Position numbers and translations under genes: made by a program. The notes under the pieces were generated by a model. The model did no database searches and was not told where the DNA came from. It saw only the letters and a list, made by a program, of their open reading frames with translations. This document shows positions 1 to 7,882 of a stretch of DNA of 7,882 bases, piece after piece. The DNA comes from a candidate division WOR-3 bacterium (GTDB taxonomy: Bacteria; SDB-A): the NCBI GenBank assembly GCA_016934535.1, contig JAFGSQ010000036.1, positions 1 to 7,882 on the forward strand, given 5' to 3'. The number at the start of each line of letters is the position of its first letter. Within the stretch, counting starts at the first letter, position 1.

Positions 1-121
1 AAATAAATAATTTCCTTTAATCAGTTTAATAATCATAAAATTTTAATAAAACTACAAGGGAATAATAAAAATTATTCCCTTGAAATTAGCTTATTTATCT
101 AAAATAAACTAAGGCAAAAAA
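1..121. other. AT-rich non-coding stretch
   Basis: This stretch is strongly AT-rich compared with the operon on the right and contains no open frame that I would call a gene on either strand. Its only clear structure is the inverted repeat at 55-82, listed separately as a terminator. It lies downstream of the small peptide gene. Whatever gene comes next is outside the window. Confidence 0.7.
41..82 (-). terminator. Rho-independent terminator of the small peptide gene
   Basis: Positions 55-66 (CAAGGGAATAAT) and 71-82 (ATTATTCCCTTG) are perfect 12-base inverted complements around a 4-base loop. Read on the minus strand the hairpin is followed by TAGTTTTATT and, after four A, by TTTT, an acceptable though interrupted U tract. 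The stem starts 39 bases past the stop codon of the 45-aa peptide gene. The plus-strand side is followed by mixed sequence without a good T run, so termination is most likely directed at minus-strand transcripts. The stem has only four G:C pairs, all near its base, so its strength is uncertain. Confidence 0.75.
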
Positions 122-259
122 TTATCTTACCATGTAACACACACTGGCGGTTACCGGCGGAGGTAAACAACCACCAACAAATTCCGGCAAAGTCTGCACT
201 GGCGTCCCACCATTATCCGGCACTTCTTCATCAATGCGAATTTCTTCGTACTTATCCAT
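122..259 (-). CDS. 45-aa peptide with double-glycine motif, possible secreted or modified peptide precursor
   Basis: This small gene encodes MDKYEEIRIDEEVPDNGG (residues 1-18), then TPVQTLPEFVGG (19-30), then CLPPPVTASVCYMVR (31-45). The first half is acidic. Residues 24-30 (LPEFVGG) match the double-glycine leader pattern recognised by peptidase-containing ABC exporters: Leu at -7, Phe at -4, Gly at -2 and -1. The usual Glu at -8 and Leu at -12 are absent. The 15-residue tail has Cys31 and Cys41 plus one Thr and one Ser, so a disulfide or thioether ring is possible. The ATG at 259 is chosen because AGGAGG lies 7 bases upstream. Another in-frame ATG at 265 would add two residues but is only one base from the AGGAGG. 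The gene has its own promoter and terminator. I do not recognise a family. The precursor reading is inference, because no maturation or export gene is visible. It could also be another kind of small protein with a Cys pair. Confidence 0.7.
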   Translation of the reverse strand: MDKYEEIRIDEEVPDNGGTPVQTLPEFVGGCLPPPVTASVCYMVR

Positions 260-266
260 GTCCATT

Positions 267-275
267 CCTCCTTTT
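267..275 (-). promoter_or_regulatory. Strong ribosome binding site that decides the peptide start
   Basis: On the minus strand this reads AAAAGGAGG. The AGGAGG core lies 7 bases before the ATG at 259 but only 1 base before the ATG at 265, so the 45-residue form is favoured over the 47-residue form. Confidence 0.8.
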
Positions 276-314: not shown

Positions 315-343
315 AATATACAAAAAATATAAAAATTTGTCAC
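315..343 (-). promoter_or_regulatory. Sigma70-type promoter for the small peptide gene
   Basis: On the minus strand GTGACA (343-338) and TATATT (320-315) are separated by exactly 17 bases. Each hexamer matches the TTGACA and TATAAT consensus at five of six positions. The start of transcription would fall near 308, giving a leader of about 45-50 bases before the ATG at 259. The surrounding 266-421 gap is very AT-rich and otherwise shows no gene, and I saw no convincing terminator for the upstream operon in it, so read-through from the operon is also possible. Confidence 0.65.
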
Positions 344-421: not shown

Positions 422-1573
422 TCATTCAACCCTAAAAAATGCTGAGATAAGCCTCCAGATAACGTCAGATTTGAAAACAAAAAGGTTTAGCACAGAAAGA
501 GCAGAAAGGGCGACGAGTAATACTATAATCAGCCCCTTTTCAATGTCCTGAGCTTTTATGGTGGCGCAGAGGACAGGATCTTTGGATAGATACGCACTCG
601 CCGCGTATAGCTCCTCTCCTATCAGAGTATAGTCACAGGAAGTTATAAAAAACGGAAGCTGAGTCACGGCGTCGGTTCCTGCTATCTGAATTGCACCTGT
701 AGAATTTCCTGTCTCGGCTAAAAGAAGGGATTCAGCCCAAAACATTCCTAAAAATAGGTTGGTTGCAGGTTTCTCTCTAAGCATTATACCGTTAACCGCA
801 GCGACAAAGGCAAATTGGTGTTCGGATATGAAGAAGACCTGATCTGAATTAAAGGCGTCAGGCCTACCCGCTTCAAGATAAGATTCCTTCACTACTTCCG
901 ATGTCACCGTATAGACAATCGGGTCTGCTGATGGAACTATTATTGTAGATTCGTATTCAGCGACTTTTTTCGATACCGGACCGAGAATGTTGATCGAAGC
1001 GACGGTTGCTATGTCGTCCATGGTGGAAAGGCCGGGAACATAAAGAACAGGTCTTCCCATTTCCGTCGCTCTTCCTACGGCTTCGTCTAAGGCATCCAAT
1101 CCGGCTATCTTTCTTATAAACAGCAGTTTACCCTTCTTCGCAGAATTAATAAAATAAACTATTAAGATAAAAGCTAAAGCCGCCGCAAGAAAAGTATTCA
1201 CTTTTGTTTTGTTGAATATTGAAGCGGATGAACTGAAAAAATCACTTTCGCCAATAACATCAAGCTCTGTCTCTTGTTGGGAAACCGCAACAATTTTGTA
1301 TGAAACGTTCATGCCTGCTTCGAGAGGATATCGCGGATCGCAATCGACAAAAACTGTCTCTGCTGGTGAACTCAATCTCCCCAAAAAATAAAAACCTTCT
1401 CCGGGAGAATCTTTTCTATAAACGAGATAACCAACAGCTTCAGGATTGTCAGTTGGATTCCAGAATACCAAAAGAGCAGATCCGTCATCATTCGGTAAGT
1501 CCTCGACGAAAACTCCGCCGTTTATTGCCGAAAAACTCACCACTAAAATAAAAGCGCCGAGTATTGTTTTCAT
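422..1573 (-). CDS. FN3-DUF6754 membrane protein, second copy
   Basis: This 383-aa protein has an N-terminal signal peptide (about residues 1-18) and an FN3-like beta domain (about 22-115; note the VFVDCDPR and YKIVAV strands). A membrane helix follows (about 127-144), then basic residues (AKKGK) and the DUF6754 domain (about 150-345). It ends with a second helix (about 346-366). By the positive-inside rule FN3 is extracytoplasmic and DUF6754 cytoplasmic. Signature segments include RKIAGLDALDEAVGRATEMG, YLEAGRPDAF, AETGNSTGAIQIAGTD and YTLIGEELYAASAYLS. It is a paralogue of the gene at 3768-4931, about 85% identical over DUF6754 by eye but far less alike over FN3. It starts 8 bases after the preceding gene, with only a weak ribosome site (GAAGTG), which suggests translational coupling. 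It is the last gene of the operon. The DUF6754 assignment is from memory of the family, and its function is unknown. Confidence 0.85.
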   Translation of the reverse strand: MKTILGAFILVVSFSAINGGVFVEDLPNDDGSALLVFWNPTDNPEAVGYLVYRKDSPGEGFYFLGRLSSPAETVFVDCDPRYPLEAGMNVSYKIVAVSQQETELDVIGESDFFSSSASIFNKTKVNTFLAAALAFILIVYFINSAKKGKLLFIRKIAGLDALDEAVGRATEMGRPVLYVPGLSTMDDIATVASINILGPVSKKVAEYESTIIVPSADPIVYTVTSEVVKESYLEAGRPDAFNSDQVFFISEHQFAFVAAVNGIMLREKPATNLFLGMFWAESLLLAETGNSTGAIQIAGTDAVTQLPFFITSCDYTLIGEELYAASAYLSKDPVLCATIKAQDIEKGLIIVLLVALSALSVLNLFVFKSDVIWRLISAFFRVE

Positions 1574-1581
1574 GTTTCACT

Positions 1582-2229
1582 TCATCTTAAAATTCCGAGC
1601 CAGTCATGCAATAGGAATTGAATTCTGCCTATGAGAAGAGAAACACGCGCCATAATCGTATAGCCGAACGATGCTCCGAAAGCTATCATGACAAACCATA
1701 TTCCGAGCCTCGAAGTTTTGCCTACGATGCCTTCGTGTTTCAGAGAGAAAAAGAAATAAAAAAGAGTAGATACAACACCAACGAGTAATAGAAGTGCCCA
1801 CCAGGAATTCAGACTTGTAGGGTTGAATCCCGTCAAAATTGTACCCTGGACTTGCGGAAAAATATTTGTTTCAATGCTCGGTGAAATTGATATACCGTTG
1901 AAATAGCCCATCATCAAAGCTATGGGCCACCTCGCCAGCCAGCTTTGTTTGGGAAAAAATCTGAAAAAATACAGAGATCCCAGCAGAGTCGGTATTGCGA
2001 CATATATAAATCCGGGCCAGTTACTTTGAATAAAAGCATCTCTAAGAGGCATTGCAATATAAGGTATTGCCGTCATGTGCCATACAATGGCTATTGACCA
2101 CCCAACTGAAGCCCCGACAAAAACGTGTTCGGCAAACCTGTAGAGCGGATTGTCTTTATATAGAAAGGAATAAATAGTCAGCGTCAGAAAAGCCGCTATC
2201 CATACCCAAATGCTTGTCGAAATGTGCAT
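1582..2229 (-). CDS. 215-aa polytopic membrane protein of unknown function
   Basis: This small integral membrane protein has about five or six predicted helices: near residues 5-24, 33-52, 72-92, possibly 98-113, 141-163 and 173-198. The segment LYRFAEHVFVGASVGW at 29-44, with Arg, Glu and His inside or at the edge of a helix, and the RFFPKQ loop at 90-95 are the most distinctive parts. There is no signal peptide and no enzyme motif that I recognise. The start codon overlaps the stop of the 292-aa gene by one base (TGATG), and an AGGAGG sits 5 bases before it, which fixes the start. Its place between two other membrane-protein genes and next to a DUF6754 gene points to a subunit of the same membrane assembly. 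A transport or channel role is possible but nothing here proves it. Confidence 0.85.
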   Translation of the reverse strand: MHISTSIWVWIAAFLTLTIYSFLYKDNPLYRFAEHVFVGASVGWSIAIVWHMTAIPYIAMPLRDAFIQSNWPGFIYVAIPTLLGSLYFFRFFPKQSWLARWPIALMMGYFNGISISPSIETNIFPQVQGTILTGFNPTSLNSWWALLLLVGVVSTLFYFFFSLKHEGIVGKTSRLGIWFVMIAFGASFGYTIMARVSLLIGRIQFLLHDWLGILR

Positions 2230-3107
2230 CAGAGCCTCCTCTCTCTGTTCTTTTTTAGTACGAAGAAGGAAATGTTGCCGAGTATAACCATAACTATTAT
2301 GAGTATATGAACAAAATTCTGTGAAGCCATTGCAATGCCGGCTTGTTTTCTTACTTCGATGTTGAGTCTCTGGGCGTTTAATTCTTCGTATTCAGCCGCG
2401 CCTTTCATACCGCCTAACATGCCAATAAACTGTCTTGTTTGAAGAAAAGTATAATATTCAGCAGCGCTGACCGCAGTGGTTCCAACTCCAATCGGGGTTC
2501 CGTACCTTGTTCCGGCATAAATCATCCACCATCTTGATACTGCCGAACCTGCAATATCAACAATCAAACCTATGTCTTCAAGTCTTCTAATGTTATCCAT
2601 CATCGGTAAAAACTTCAAACTATCACCGTGTACATCAATTCTAAAAGTACCGATCAGGTCTTCACCCATACCAACAATTACAGCTAATCCTCCAGGAGCA
2701 AAAGGTAAAAAGACATAATCCTTCCCGTAAATAATCGAGTCTCCGTTCGCTAAGTGATAATTCATTTCTTCAAGCACAGTTCTCTCTGTTATTTGTGCTA
2801 AACCGTAACCATCAGGGTAAAGTCCTCCATAGAGGATAACAGGAATGTCAGCTTCGAGAGCGTGTCTGAAGAGTGCGTTTGCCATGGGTTGCAGTTCAGG
2901 TGAAGTAGAAGGTGAATAATCCGTTACTATTATTATCGGTTTTTGGGTGTATTTGAGGCTGTCAACGAAATTCCAAAGGTTGAGAGTCGGAGGGGATGTT
3001 GTAACGGGAAATCTAAGGTTAGTAATTGAGGGAATAATTACAGATAAACCGATTAGCAGAAAAAGCCATCTTCTGTCCAATTTTTCCATAAAAAGCCAAA
3101 ATTTCAT
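2229..3107 (-). CDS. 292-aa protein with one large domain between two membrane anchors
   Basis: A short basic N-terminus (MKFWLFMEKLDRRW) leads into a helix at about 14-30. A domain of roughly 230 residues follows, then a second helix at about 266-285 and a very basic tail (KKNRERRL). The charges place both ends in the cytoplasm and the large domain outside it. The domain begins with an alpha/beta-looking stretch: strand PIIIVTDYS (57-65), helix ELQPMANALFRHALEADI (71-88), strand PVILYGG (89-95), then a glycine-rich FAPGGLAVIVGMGEDLIG (136-153). I do not recognise a family. Residues 225-262 (MLGGMKGAAEYEELNAQR onward) look helical and could be a stalk. Its start overlaps the stop of the preceding gene as TGATG, with GGGAGG 7 bases upstream. 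Both flanking genes encode multi-helix membrane proteins, so it is probably a subunit of their complex. Confidence 0.85.
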   Translation of the reverse strand: MKFWLFMEKLDRRWLFLLIGLSVIIPSITNLRFPVTTSPPTLNLWNFVDSLKYTQKPIIIVTDYSPSTSPELQPMANALFRHALEADIPVILYGGLYPDGYGLAQITERTVLEEMNYHLANGDSIIYGKDYVFLPFAPGGLAVIVGMGEDLIGTFRIDVHGDSLKFLPMMDNIRRLEDIGLIVDIAGSAVSRWWMIYAGTRYGTPIGVGTTAVSAAEYYTFLQTRQFIGMLGGMKGAAEYEELNAQRLNIEVRKQAGIAMASQNFVHILIIVMVILGNISFFVLKKNRERRL

Positions 3108-3727
3108 CAGTCACCTCCCCCGAGGTACGCCCTCTCAATTCCAAGGATTATTTTCAAAGATGTAGCGATTGACCCCAGACCTATGCCGATTGTAATTCCC
3201 CTTTGAGCCGCTGTATTAGGATATACAAGGATCCACTCAACTACTCCGTCCAGAAAACTCCCGAAAGAAACCCTTCCCAGCATGACTATTATCGCCGTTA
3301 CTAAAAGTGCAAAAGCCATTGCATTCCTCGCTTTGAAAGATTTGAACGCGGCGGAAGCTATATAAAATGAAAGAAGAGAGAACATGGTCGAGTCGAGAGA
3401 GACATTGATGCTTCTGTAGAGATTCGAGAAAAGCCAGCCGTTTGTTCCGCCTCTTCCAAAAATCCCCACTCCTGCCATCCCGAGAAGACAGAAAATAGCT
3501 ACACCAGAATAGAAGCTGTCTTTGTTCTTTCTCGCTATTTTTCTTGTATGGACGTAGAAAAAGCTGGCCAATCCGAGCACTAAAGCAAAAGCACCTGATA
3601 TTCTCACCCATTCTGCCATACTGTCGTAAAAGGTCTGCGACACTGGATGCGGTATGAAAAACTGGATTATCATAGCCAAGCCGAGCAGAAATACGACGAG
3701 AAGGGGAAGAGTCCTCTTTAAAAACAT
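3107..3727 (-). CDS. 206-aa polytopic membrane protein of unknown function
   Basis: There are about six likely membrane helices, near residues 7-25, 43-60, 73-91, 113-130, 134-150 and 177-195. Basic loops after helix two (HTRKIARKNK) and between helices four and five (KSFKARN) are probably cytoplasmic. The segment FYIASAAFKSFKARNAMAFA (121-140) is the most distinctive part. No catalytic or transport signature is recognisable. The ATG at 3727 is supported by AAAGGAG 7 bases upstream. A 40-base gap separates it from the first FN3-DUF6754 gene, the widest inside the operon. Its own stop overlaps the next start by one base, so it and the 292-aa protein are probably made together. Confidence 0.85.
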   Translation of the reverse strand: MFLKRTLPLLVVFLLGLAMIIQFFIPHPVSQTFYDSMAEWVRISGAFALVLGLASFFYVHTRKIARKNKDSFYSGVAIFCLLGMAGVGIFGRGGTNGWLFSNLYRSINVSLDSTMFSLLSFYIASAAFKSFKARNAMAFALLVTAIIVMLGRVSFGSFLDGVVEWILVYPNTAAQRGITIGIGLGSIATSLKIILGIERAYLGGGD

Positions 3728-3767
3728 TTCCCAACTCCTTTAGATTTATGTGAAAACTCTATCATTG

Positions 3768-4931
3768 TCACGATCCAAAAATTGACATAATTACTCTTGA
3801 CATTAATTCGGATTTGATAAAATTGAAATTCAGAACAGCCAGTATTGAAAGTAGAACGAGAAGAATCAATATCATTGCTTTTTCTACGTCCTGGGCTTTT
3901 ATAGTGCCTACGAGAACTGGATCTCGTGACAGGTAAGCGCTTGCAGCATAGAGTTCTTCTCCAATGAGAGTGTAATCGCAGGAGGTGACGAAAAAAGGAA
4001 GCTGTGTCACTGAGTCTGTCCCTGCTATTTGAACAGCTCCAGTTGCGTTTCCTGTCTCGGCGAGAAGAAGCGATTCGGCCCAGAACATACCAAGGAAAAG
4101 GTTTGTCGCCGGCTTTTCCCTCATCATTATTCCGTTTACGGCGGCGACAAAAGCAAACTGACTTTCTGAGACAAAAAAGACCTGGTCTTCCTGGAAGGCG
4201 TCAGGTCTTCCTGCTTCAAGGTAAGCCTCTTTGACAACTTCATGTGTTATCGTATAGACGATCGGATCTCTGTTTGGGACGAGAATTTTAGTCTCGTATT
4301 CGGCGACTTTTTTTGCGACTGGTCCGAGAATGTTTATAGAAGCGACAGTGGCTATATCAGACATAGATGAAAGCCCCGGAACGTAGAGAACCGATCTGCC
4401 CATCTCCGTCGCTCTTCCTACTGCTTCATCCAGGGCGTCAAGACCTGCTATTTTCCTTATAAAAAGACTTTTTCCTTTTTTAGCAATATTTAAAAATACT
4501 AGTAAAGCGATAAAAACAATAGCAACAGCTATGATGGTATTTTTTTTAGTCGAGTTGAAAAAAGAATATGAAGGCGAGAATTCTTCTGAAAAACCTATTT
4601 CCAGCAATTCATTTTCATTCTCATCAACAGCGACAATTCTGTAAAAAACTGTCATTCCGGCGTTTAAAGGAGCCCTCGGGTCGCAGTCGACAAAAACCGT
4701 ATTTGAAATGTCGCTGGATTTGCCTATTTGGACGTATTCGGCGTCAGGCGCATCTTTCCTGTATATTTTGTACATGAAAAAGTCCGGAATATCGCCCGGC
4801 GGCTCCCAGCTGACAATGAGGGCTGAGCCATCGTCGTCGTGGACGTCTTCAACGCATATTGGAGACCCAACCAGGGGCAAATATCCCCACAAGATCAGGA
4901 CAAGCGCTGGAACAATTCTATGAATAATCAT
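3768..4931 (-). CDS. FN3-DUF6754 membrane protein, first copy
   Basis: This 387-aa protein has the same layout as the copy at 422-1573. It has a signal peptide (about 1-23, hydrophobic run VPALVLILWGYLPL), an FN3-like domain (about 26-118, with KIYRKD, TVFVDCDPR and FYRIVAV strands) and a helix at about 131-149. A basic AKKGK stop-transfer segment leads into DUF6754 (about 154-349), and the protein ends with a helix at about 351-371. FN3 should be outside and DUF6754 inside the cell. The DUF6754 core contains YVPGLSSMSDIATVASINIL, IVYTITHEVVKEAYLEAGRP and LAETGNATGAVQIAGTD. The ATG follows the stop of the 375-aa gene by two bases, and its ribosome site (GAGGAG) lies inside the end of that gene, so translation is likely coupled. 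The cytoplasmic domain is the obvious docking face for the two soluble upstream proteins, but this is inference. Function is unknown. Confidence 0.87.
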   Translation of the reverse strand: MIIHRIVPALVLILWGYLPLVGSPICVEDVHDDDGSALIVSWEPPGDIPDFFMYKIYRKDAPDAEYVQIGKSSDISNTVFVDCDPRAPLNAGMTVFYRIVAVDENENELLEIGFSEEFSPSYSFFNSTKKNTIIAVAIVFIALLVFLNIAKKGKSLFIRKIAGLDALDEAVGRATEMGRSVLYVPGLSSMSDIATVASINILGPVAKKVAEYETKILVPNRDPIVYTITHEVVKEAYLEAGRPDAFQEDQVFFVSESQFAFVAAVNGIMMREKPATNLFLGMFWAESLLLAETGNATGAVQIAGTDSVTQLPFFVTSCDYTLIGEELYAASAYLSRDPVLVGTIKAQDVEKAMILILLVLLSILAVLNFNFIKSELMSRVIMSIFGS

Positions 4932-4933
4932 GC

Positions 4934-6061
4934 CTACTCCTCGATGAGTTCTACGTTAGCTCTCGGCAACAGCACCTGTTTACCGTCCTGTAGTTTGACC
5001 TTTACTACTCTGACTTTCGCCTCTGTTTCAATTTGCCTGGGTTCGGCTGGGAGTTCCGAAACTTCCCCTATCAAACCGAAGTGGGGTTCTCTTATTATCC
5101 TGACGAGTGTGCCTACTACCATCATACCTGATTCTTTGAACTCTATCTTTTTATCGTCATCGGAAAGCTTTATGGGGATTATTACCTCAGGTCTCATGAC
5201 CCCCGCCCTTATCTGCGTTGCACCGTTTACCGAAGCCATTGAACCTTTCTTGGAAGACAAAAGTTTGAAAGTTTTATTCGCCATCGCTATCTTTCCGAAA
5301 CCTTCCGTCACAACGAGAGTCAGTCCGACATCTTCGTGCCCCGTAATGGCGACGCCTATGTCGTAACCTATGAATTTCTTGAGGTCTTCGTCGTCCACGC
5401 CTCCCACGACTACAGCTTTGACGCCGGTTTCAGCGGCTTTTTTCATGACTTCGGAAGTACAGAATGAACCGCCTATAACTATTTTGCCCTTGCATTCGGG
5501 TGTTATGTGGCTGACGAGCAGTTCTTCGGCAGGATCGTTTACGACCGGAAGAATTTCACCCCTGGTCTCGCCGCCGATTCCGAAAATTCCCTGGACGAAA
5601 GAGCAGACAGTTTCTACAACTACTCCTTCGTCGGGGAACACTTCGACGATTTTTCCGTCTATATAGGCGTCTTTTTCGACAGGCTGGGGTGGCTCCCTTA
5701 AAATAGCCTGACCTGTTACGTCCGAGACACTCTCGAGCGTGCCGTCAATCGGAGACCTCGCCGAGGCCTTGAAAAGTCCCATAAAACCTTTCGTCTCGGC
5801 TATGATTTGACCTTTTTCAATTTTTCCGCCTATTTCAACTTTCAGTGAGTTTTTTACGTCGCCAGCCGCTGTTCCGAGTTTTCCCGCGAGATTATAGGGA
5901 AGGACATTTCCGGGCAACTCCGTCCTGGCTACTGTGTCCTCGGCTTTAACCTGGGTGCTGATTTTGTCAATGAGTACCTTCCCTTTCAGAGGAAGTCTTC
6001 TCTCTTTTCTCAGAACTGTTCTCTGAGTCACCATAAGTCCGGGTGTGTATGCATGAGCCAT
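4934..6061 (-). CDS. Soluble protein with barrel-sandwich, Rossmann-like and KOW-like parts
   Basis: This 375-aa protein has no signal peptide or membrane helix and so is probably cytoplasmic. Residues about 45-115 (VEIGGKIEKGQIIAETKG, then ARSPIDGTLESVSDVTGQ) look like the barrel-sandwich hybrid fold of lipoyl, RnfC or NqrA type. I see no lysine in the classical biotin or lipoyl attachment context. Residues about 185-260 (GKIVIGGSFCTSEVMKKAAE, AVVVGGVDDEDL, GVAITG) look like a nucleotide-type alpha/beta fold. The C-terminus, about 315-375 (GTLVRIIREPHFGLIGEVSE, then DGKQVLLPRANVELIEE), resembles a KOW/SH3-like barrel. Cysteines at 153, 190 and 201 are not arranged as a cluster motif. The gene follows the MutL-like gene with only TAA between the TGA stop and the ATG, with GAGAGG as ribosome site. 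I remember similar conserved-hypothetical proteins beside MutL-like genes. The function is unknown, and a scaffold or adaptor to the ATPase is a guess. Confidence 0.87.
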   Translation of the reverse strand: MAHAYTPGLMVTQRTVLRKERRLPLKGKVLIDKISTQVKAEDTVARTELPGNVLPYNLAGKLGTAAGDVKNSLKVEIGGKIEKGQIIAETKGFMGLFKASARSPIDGTLESVSDVTGQAILREPPQPVEKDAYIDGKIVEVFPDEGVVVETVCSFVQGIFGIGGETRGEILPVVNDPAEELLVSHITPECKGKIVIGGSFCTSEVMKKAAETGVKAVVVGGVDDEDLKKFIGYDIGVAITGHEDVGLTLVVTEGFGKIAMANKTFKLLSSKKGSMASVNGATQIRAGVMRPEVIIPIKLSDDDKKIEFKESGMMVVGTLVRIIREPHFGLIGEVSELPAEPRQIETEAKVRVVKVKLQDGKQVLLPRANVELIEE

Positions 6062-6064
6062 TTA

Positions 6065-7882
6065 TCACCTCTCGTCCGGGTATATGTTGAGTGATTTATT
6101 CCATGCGGTCAGCTTCTGAACGCGCTCCTCTTCTGTTTTGGCTATCTCGAAAGGTCTTCTTCCGCGTGTGTCGACAATCAGTCCGACGACGCCTCCTTCT
6201 AGTTCTGTCGTGAGCTCTTTTCCAAATCCCGCTCCGACATCGAAATTCCTTTCGGGGCTTATAATCGCCTTTTCCTTTTTGCCTTCAGGAAATTCCAAGA
6301 GTTTTAAAGTTCCGAATTCGACTGATTCTTCCCTCCCGCTCTCGAATTTTATCTTGATGCAATGATTTCCAGGTTTTTTCTTCTTTTTCTCCACAGGGGC
6401 TATGCAGTGTCCAAGTCTTATCAGGCAGTCGTTGTCGAAAACTTCAGTTGCCGCTTCCGGATGAACCGTCGAGAGGACTCCCAGGTGCGGCATCATGAAT
6501 ATCGAGTCCACCGCGAGCATCGTATCGCCTTCAGGCAGAAACGCGTCGATCATCATCAAGGCAGACTGGGCTCTCCTCGGCGCGTGCGAAAGAACTCCTC
6601 CCGAGCCTATGAGCATGTTTAATTTCATCATATCTACAAGCGAAGTCCCTGTCGCCGCCTGATCAAACGCGTCGGCTATAGTCCTCTCCTGCTGAACTCC
6701 TTTGAGGCCGACGGCCATAAATTTGTGCTGGATGAAAGCAAGCCTGAGCGCTTCTCTCGCAATGGCCTGTTCTACCTTCAGTTCTTCGAGCGTCTGAGGT
6801 ATCGTCGTCGGCCTTATCATTTTATTGCGGATCCTGTTCCTCAGGTCTTTTTCGTCCATCTTGAAAGGGACCCACCTCATAATGTTTGGAATTCCTGCTT
6901 CCGCCATGACGTTCGAAATCGAATATGACATCCCGAGGTTGGCAGAGACCGTTCTGTTGAAGACGGGCTTTCCTTCCGACTTGTCTTCAAAAACGCTGAA
7001 TACGTCCGTAGTAGCTCCTCCTATGTCCACACCTATGACCTGAATGTTCTCTTGTTTAGCAACCGTCTCTATCAGAAGTCCGACAGCTCCGGGCGTCGGC
7101 ATTATACTGACGTCGGTCCAGGACATAAGCTTTCTGTATCCGGGGGCCTGAGCCATCACGTGTTCCATGAAAAGGTCATGAATCTTGTCCCTGGCCGGTT
7201 TTAAATTTTCTCTTTCGAGTATTGGCCTCAGGTTGTCGACAATGAAAAGCTCCGTCTTTTCCTTGAGCCGTTCTGCAACCATTTCTCTGGCGTCCTTGTT
7301 ACCCGCGAAAATAACCGGAAGCTTGAATGTCGATCCGAAGCGCGGTTTCGGATCTGCGGCGGCGATGAGCTCGGCGAGTTCAGCGACGTGCTTTGTCGTC
7401 CCGCCGTCTATTCCACCAGAGAGCAGAATCATGTCCGGCCTAAGGTTTCTTATTCTCTCGATTCTCTGGTGGGGAAGTCTTTTGTCGTTCGTCGCGATGA
7501 CATCCATGACTATGGATCCTGCGCCGAGTGCCGCTCTGGCGGCCGATTCGGCCGTCATATTCTTTACTACCCCGGCCACCATCATCTGAAGTCCTCCACC
7601 TGCCGAAGATGTAGAAATGTATATGTCCACACCCTCGCTTTCGGATTTATCTTTTGCTATGAGGTCATTCTCGATTATTTTCCTGTCGACAAGTTCTTCC
7701 ACTTCCTTGACAGAATTCAAAACGCCTATGGTGACGTCTTCAAAAGGGGATTCCACGGTAGTCGGCGCTTCACCCCTTACGATAAGCCTGTATCGCCCGG
7801 CTTTATCGTCTTTCTGAATGAGAATCGCCTTCGTAGTGGTGGATCCGCAGTCAGTCGCGAGAATTGTCTTTATCTGTTCCTT
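6065..7882 (-). CDS. MutL/GlmL-family actin-like ATPase, 5' end cut by window edge
   Basis: The frame stays open to the right edge, so 605 residues are visible and the true start is outside. A GTG at 7756 is not the start, because the conserved phosphate-binding loop DCGSTTTKA lies upstream of it at visible residues 11-19. Other family landmarks are STSSAGGGLQMMVAGV (90-105), LLSGGIDGGTT (153-163), the second phosphate loop VIGVDIGGATTDV (282-294) and MLIGSGGVLSHAP (423-435). These are typical of MutL (glutamate mutase L), an actin/Hsp70-fold ATPase usually associated with reactivation of adenosylcobalamin-dependent mutases. After about residue 495 a KKKKK linker leads to a further region of about 100 residues (IISPERNFDVGAGFGKEL, then GGVVGLIVDTRGRRPFEI). 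No mutase gene is visible here and the downstream partners are mostly membrane proteins. An automatic label of glutamate mutase accessory protein may therefore mislead. Confidence 0.9.
   Translation of the reverse strand, partial: KEQIKTILATDCGSTTTKAILIQKDDKAGRYRLIVRGEAPTTVESPFEDVTIGVLNSVKEVEELVDRKIIENDLIAKDKSESEGVDIYISTSSAGGGLQMMVAGVVKNMTAESAARAALGAGSIVMDVIATNDKRLPHQRIERIRNLRPDMILLSGGIDGGTTKHVAELAELIAAADPKPRFGSTFKLPVIFAGNKDAREMVAERLKEKTELFIVDNLRPILERENLKPARDKIHDLFMEHVMAQAPGYRKLMSWTDVSIMPTPGAVGLLIETVAKQENIQVIGVDIGGATTDVFSVFEDKSEGKPVFNRTVSANLGMSYSISNVMAEAGIPNIMRWVPFKMDEKDLRNRIRNKMIRPTTIPQTLEELKVEQAIAREALRLAFIQHKFMAVGLKGVQQERTIADAFDQAATGTSLVDMMKLNMLIGSGGVLSHAPRRAQSALMMIDAFLPEGDTMLAVDSIFMMPHLGVLSTVHPEAATEVFDNDCLIRLGHCIAPVEKKKKKPGNHCIKIKFESGREESVEFGTLKLLEFPEGKKEKAIISPERNFDVGAGFGKELTTELEGGVVGLIVDTRGRRPFEIAKTEEERVQKLTAWNKSLNIYPDER

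Follow-up and report, generated by a model that had tools for sequence, protein, structure and literature searches.

An unannotated, probably genuine gene for a 45-residue peptide with a Gly-Gly-Cys tail at a contig end in a candidate division WOR-3 genome bin

Genomic context of the locus

The stretch of DNA analysed here, hereafter the window, corresponds to contig C36 in its full length (7882 bp), one of the 76 contigs that make up a metagenome bin of 2.23 Mb. The relatives of its genes belong to candidate division WOR-3, Stahlbacteria and lineages of that kind. The main genes are all carried on the minus strand and comprise a MutL/GlmL-family protein, a 375-aa protein and a membrane-protein operon. 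In this operon (window 422-4931) two related DUF6754 proteins flank three further membrane proteins. The last gene of the operon encodes the second DUF6754 membrane protein (422..1573, minus), and 162 bp after it lies the final open reading frame of the contig, on the same strand, with its ATG at 259 and its stop codon at 124..122, which specifies a peptide of 45 aa (122..259; MDKYEEIRIDEEVPDNGGTPVQTLPEFVGGCLPPPVTASVCYMVR). The contig ends 121 bp past this stop codon and, since the window is the whole contig, the DNA beyond the 3' end of the peptide gene is missing. Leftward extension by contig-end overlap yielded no other contig of the bin that matched the first 120 bases well.

The operon is present twice in the bin, at window 426-7882 and on contig C3 (L034:47-7503), with 79% DNA identity over 7.4 kb. 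The equivalent gap on contig C3, spanning 440 bp after the DUF6754 stop codon, is devoid of the peptide ORF and is followed by a further gene. A second, diverged set of DUF6754-operon-like genes seems to come next on that contig.

Four long syntenic contig pairs, C36/C3 among them, occur in the bin at 71-78% identity, two distinct rpmH genes are present and the estimated contamination is 3.9%. In view of the redundant syntenic contigs and the two rpmH genes, the bin is probably a mixture of two related organisms, so that the identity of the true host is uncertain. It may be the second of these organisms from which the window comes, and therefore the absence of any partner gene from the bin counts only in part.

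Features of the encoded peptide

The peptide can be divided into an N-terminal part, MDKYEEIRIDEEVPDNGGTPVQTLPEFVGG, and a tail formed by residues 31-45, CLPPPVTASVCYMVR. Direct reading of the sequence bears out the description in the earlier note of a 45-aa ORF with LPEFVGG at residues 24-30 and cysteines at 31 and 41, where Gly29-Gly30 stands directly before Cys31. An alternative upstream ATG at 265 would give a 47-aa form.

With 8 acidic and 3 basic residues the peptide carries a net charge of -5, and it contains neither a hydrophobic stretch resembling a transmembrane segment or Sec signal nor a hydrophobic helix. Structure prediction from the single sequence gave a mean pLDDT of 62 and no secondary structure, and is uninformative. 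Searches against Pfam, NCBIfam and PHROGs matched no family.

Evidence that the reading frame is a gene

A Shine-Dalgarno sequence, AAAAGGAGG, read directly from the DNA at 267..275 (minus), lies 7 nt before the ATG at 259, so that the start is preceded by AAAAGGAGG-AATGGAC-ATG, which makes a strong, ideally spaced ribosome site that equals or surpasses those of the operon genes. When the 421-bp gap was simulated with an order-1 Markov model, an ATG-initiated ORF of at least 45 aa appeared in 22-34% of cases, whereas such an ORF together with a comparable ribosome site appeared in just 0.4-0.7%.

Base composition and a downstream hairpin likewise favour a gene. The GC content is 47% within the ORF against 17% and 23% in its flanks, and the edges of this GC island coincide with those of the ORF. 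Downstream, at 55..82 (minus), lies a hairpin of 12 bp with a 4-nt loop and a weak T-rich tail (z -5.3, no shuffle equally stable), which is likely a terminator after the peptide gene. A promoter-like site, GTGACA-17-TATATT (315..343, minus), is situated some 55 nt before the ATG; three such sites were found in the region against 2.3 expected by chance, and the site is not by itself functional evidence.

Small intergenic ORFs with a ribosome site were surveyed across 0.98 Mb of the bin (73,365 intergenic bases) and ranked by GC contrast, and the peptide ORF came first of the 18 (+0.24). Ranks 2-8, for the most part recognisable as genes and with names assigned by eye, were a lipoprotein-like protein, a Cys-rich 65-mer, a ferredoxin, a ribbon-helix-helix and an AbrB-like antitoxin, and two RpmH proteins. 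The synonymous codon use of the peptide ORF is atypical (z -2.7; just 1.3% of gene stretches of 45 codons score as low). This is compatible with a gene that is young or was acquired by transfer, or else it is a mild argument against coding.

A non-coding RNA was also considered as the source of the GC island and was rejected, because the island has no notable structure on either strand (folding against shuffles: z -1.6 on the coding strand and +1.8 on the opposite strand) and no notable Rfam match. Taken with the ribosome site, the GC island and the hairpin, the proposal of the earlier note that annotation had missed a small-peptide gene here is well supported.

Search for relatives of the peptide

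The search of related genomes that the earlier note had recommended, for conservation of the Gly-Gly pair, Cys31 and Cys41, recovered no homologue. None was found in genome sets of 98 and 386, in 4 genomes of its own phylum group or in 22 WOR-3-type and neighbouring genomes, nor in GTDB species contigs, which were scanned by pattern, or in viral contigs, plasmids and phages; the pattern scans reach close relatives only. The bin itself holds no second copy or paralogue. A virus or plasmid origin of the gene was dismissed for want of any match in these sets. Weak tblastn matches (E 0.01-1) were likewise discarded, since those inspected are either interrupted by in-frame stop codons or lie across longer frames, and a short ORF of the GG-Cys-Cys layout was not among them; no sibling small ORF combining a ribosome site with a GG-C...C layout was seen in any locus examined. 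Since no homologue was found, there is no conserved peptide motif to cite.

Double-glycine leader and partner enzymes

Leaders processed by C39 peptidases are marked by hydrophobic residues at -4, -7 and -12 and by a GG-like cleavage site (PMC10885120), and a double-glycine leader consensus ending in E(I/L)x2(I/V)xG(G/A), with Glu at -8, has been cited (PMC3140520). Gly29-Gly30 conforms to the cleavage site of double-glycine precursors (GG, GA or GS). The leader itself departs from the pattern of hydrophobic -4/-7/-12 with, usually, Glu or Asp at -8: the peptide has Leu at -7 and Phe at -4, but Thr at both -8 and -12, and so matches two of the four canonical positions. The double-glycine claim of the earlier note thus holds for Leu -7, Phe -4 and the Gly-Gly pair, and fails for the absent Glu/Asp -8 and Leu -12. 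The combination of hydrophobic -7/-4, GG and at least two tail cysteines arose in 0.26% of residue shuffles, a figure to be read in the knowledge that the motif was picked after the sequence had been seen.

As for partner enzymes, no match to the C39 peptidase (PF03412) was obtained in the bin, which probably mixes two organisms, while control genomes were positive. LanC-like (PF05147) and YcaO (PF02624) proteins were absent from the 4 genomes of the family, own bin included; the lanthipeptide enzyme search consisted of the LanC profile. Within the window, where the left flank of the contig is missing, there is no PqqD-domain maturase, in agreement with the earlier remark that a partner enzyme is absent from it. 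The bin has three SPASM proteins, and the only PqqD-radical SAM-SPASM protein found in it, on contig C11, is ScmE-like, scoring 373.7 bits against ScmE (SynChlorMet) where the curated cut-off is 400.

Two sister genomes, G001 and G002, carry intact ScmE/ScmF-like cassettes at L093:3924-8889 (contig C40) and L094:3334-7394 (contig C109), respectively. Both cassettes run in the order ScmE-like protein, ScmF-like radical SAM-SPASM protein, signal-peptidase-like protein and two putative precursors of 95-99 aa. These putative precursors start with M(G)KKKYIKP, contain six or seven cysteines and four or five C-x2-G-x2-A repeats, belong to no Pfam or NCBIfam family and are possibly a new type of RiPP precursor. 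On contig C11 of the bin under study, the ScmE-like gene is intact, the ScmF-like gene is cut to 147 aa (L091:4370-4813), and neither the peptidase nor either of the precursors is present, so that this cassette has either decayed or been broken by an assembly jump.

Kinship of the peptide with the Scm-type precursors, hinted at by the common GGC and CY, was ruled out by an hhalign probability of 0.1 and by local alignments that did not surpass those of shuffled sequences (fractions 0.09 to 0.93). No partner for the peptide thus emerged from the bin, which is without C39, YcaO and LanC proteins and whose ScmE-like enzyme belongs to a cassette type with precursors unlike the peptide.

Interpretation and alternatives

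The locus probably holds a real, unannotated small-peptide gene with no detectable relative. It is quite likely that this gene is genuine, monocistronic and lineage-restricted and that it yields an acidic, unstructured peptide of 45 residues. The gene would be transcribed and translated into a product of two-part layout, in which an acidic, hydrophilic N-terminal two thirds would precede the Gly-Gly pair and a Cys-containing tail of 15 residues. To judge from this layout, it may be the tail that carries the function, whether reduced, disulfide-bonded, or cleaved at the Gly-Gly site and modified at its cysteines. The absence of a hydrophobic stretch, the net charge of -5, the low-confidence structureless model and the cysteine right after Gly-Gly favour this arrangement, while the lack of homologues, the atypical codons and the empty gap on contig C3 count against the reading as a whole.

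The leading candidate for a specific function, a RiPP or secreted-peptide precursor, is at present a doubtful one. A RiPP/bacteriocin-type precursor would have its leader (residues 1-30) cut after Gly30 and a core of residues 31-45 with a thioether or disulfide ring, closed between Cys31 and Cys41 or between Thr/Ser and Cys, and its partner genes would lie past the contig end or in another part of the true host's genome. We regard this as tentative. It is favoured by Leu -7, Phe -4, Gly at -2/-1 and Cys at +1 and +11, by the rarity among shuffles of this motif with two cysteines, by the occurrence of RiPP-type radical SAM cassettes in the genus and by a contig that stops so soon after the stop codon. 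It is opposed by the bin without C39 peptidase, YcaO or LanC, by the unmatched -8 and -12, by the dissimilarity to the sister-genome cassette precursors and by the want of homologues, hence of a conserved motif. The earlier interpretation is supported in part: the skipped small gene is well supported, and the role as a double-glycine modified or secreted precursor is a possible one. That this uncultured WOR-3-type lineage matures the peptide into a new class of Cys-cyclised, GG-cleaved product, by means of genes past the contig end, appears unlikely.

It is also unlikely that the ORF is a regulatory upstream ORF or leader peptide, the translation of which governs folding of the hairpin at 82..55 and thereby attenuates a gene past the contig end. 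A terminator-like hairpin does follow about 40 nt after the stop codon, and on contig C3 a further gene begins some 440 bp beyond the stop codon of DUF6754, and its equivalent here would fall just off the window contig; against this, the hairpin and the ORF do not overlap, and the ORF contains no run of repeated regulatory codons, which are typical of amino-acid attenuators. A spurious open frame, or what is left of a longer gene, in a GC-richer intergenic patch is very unlikely: frames this long arise readily in the simulations when no ribosome site is required, the plus strand across the GC island is likewise open in one frame, the codon use is atypical and no homologue exists in the sets searched, but the scarcity of simulated ORFs with a ribosome site, the fit of the island edges to the ORF with a hairpin following, and the first rank by GC contrast all speak for a gene.

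A genuine small-peptide gene at this locus would illustrate that, in uncultured lineages, even small genes whose expression signals are strong can escape routine annotation, and, if its tail is indeed processed, the product would be a new natural product. The firmer by-product of this work is the pair of intact radical SAM cassettes in the sister genomes, with their unusual C-x2-G-x2-A repeat precursor.

Comparison with known systems

With the substrates of C39 peptidase-ABC systems (PCAT/AMS; class II bacteriocins, lanthipeptides, Nif11 and NHLP) the peptide shares Gly-Gly before a short tail and hydrophobic residues at -7 and -4, and it differs from C39/PCAT leaders by Thr for Glu at -8, Thr for Leu at -12 and Pro at -6, in a bin without a C39 peptidase. 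With the SynChlorMet-like ScmE/ScmF precursors of G001 and G002 it shares the genus, the small size, the presence of cysteines and an N-terminal segment with Lys-Tyr, and its GGC also occurs in two of those four precursors; they in turn differ from the 45-aa peptide by their length of 95-99 aa, their M(G)KKKYIKP start and their C-x2-G-x2-A repeats. The peptide also resembles the taxon-restricted orphan small proteins of uncultured bacteria, from which no tested feature sets it apart and with which it has in common a strong initiation site, the lack of a homologue and a length below 50 aa.
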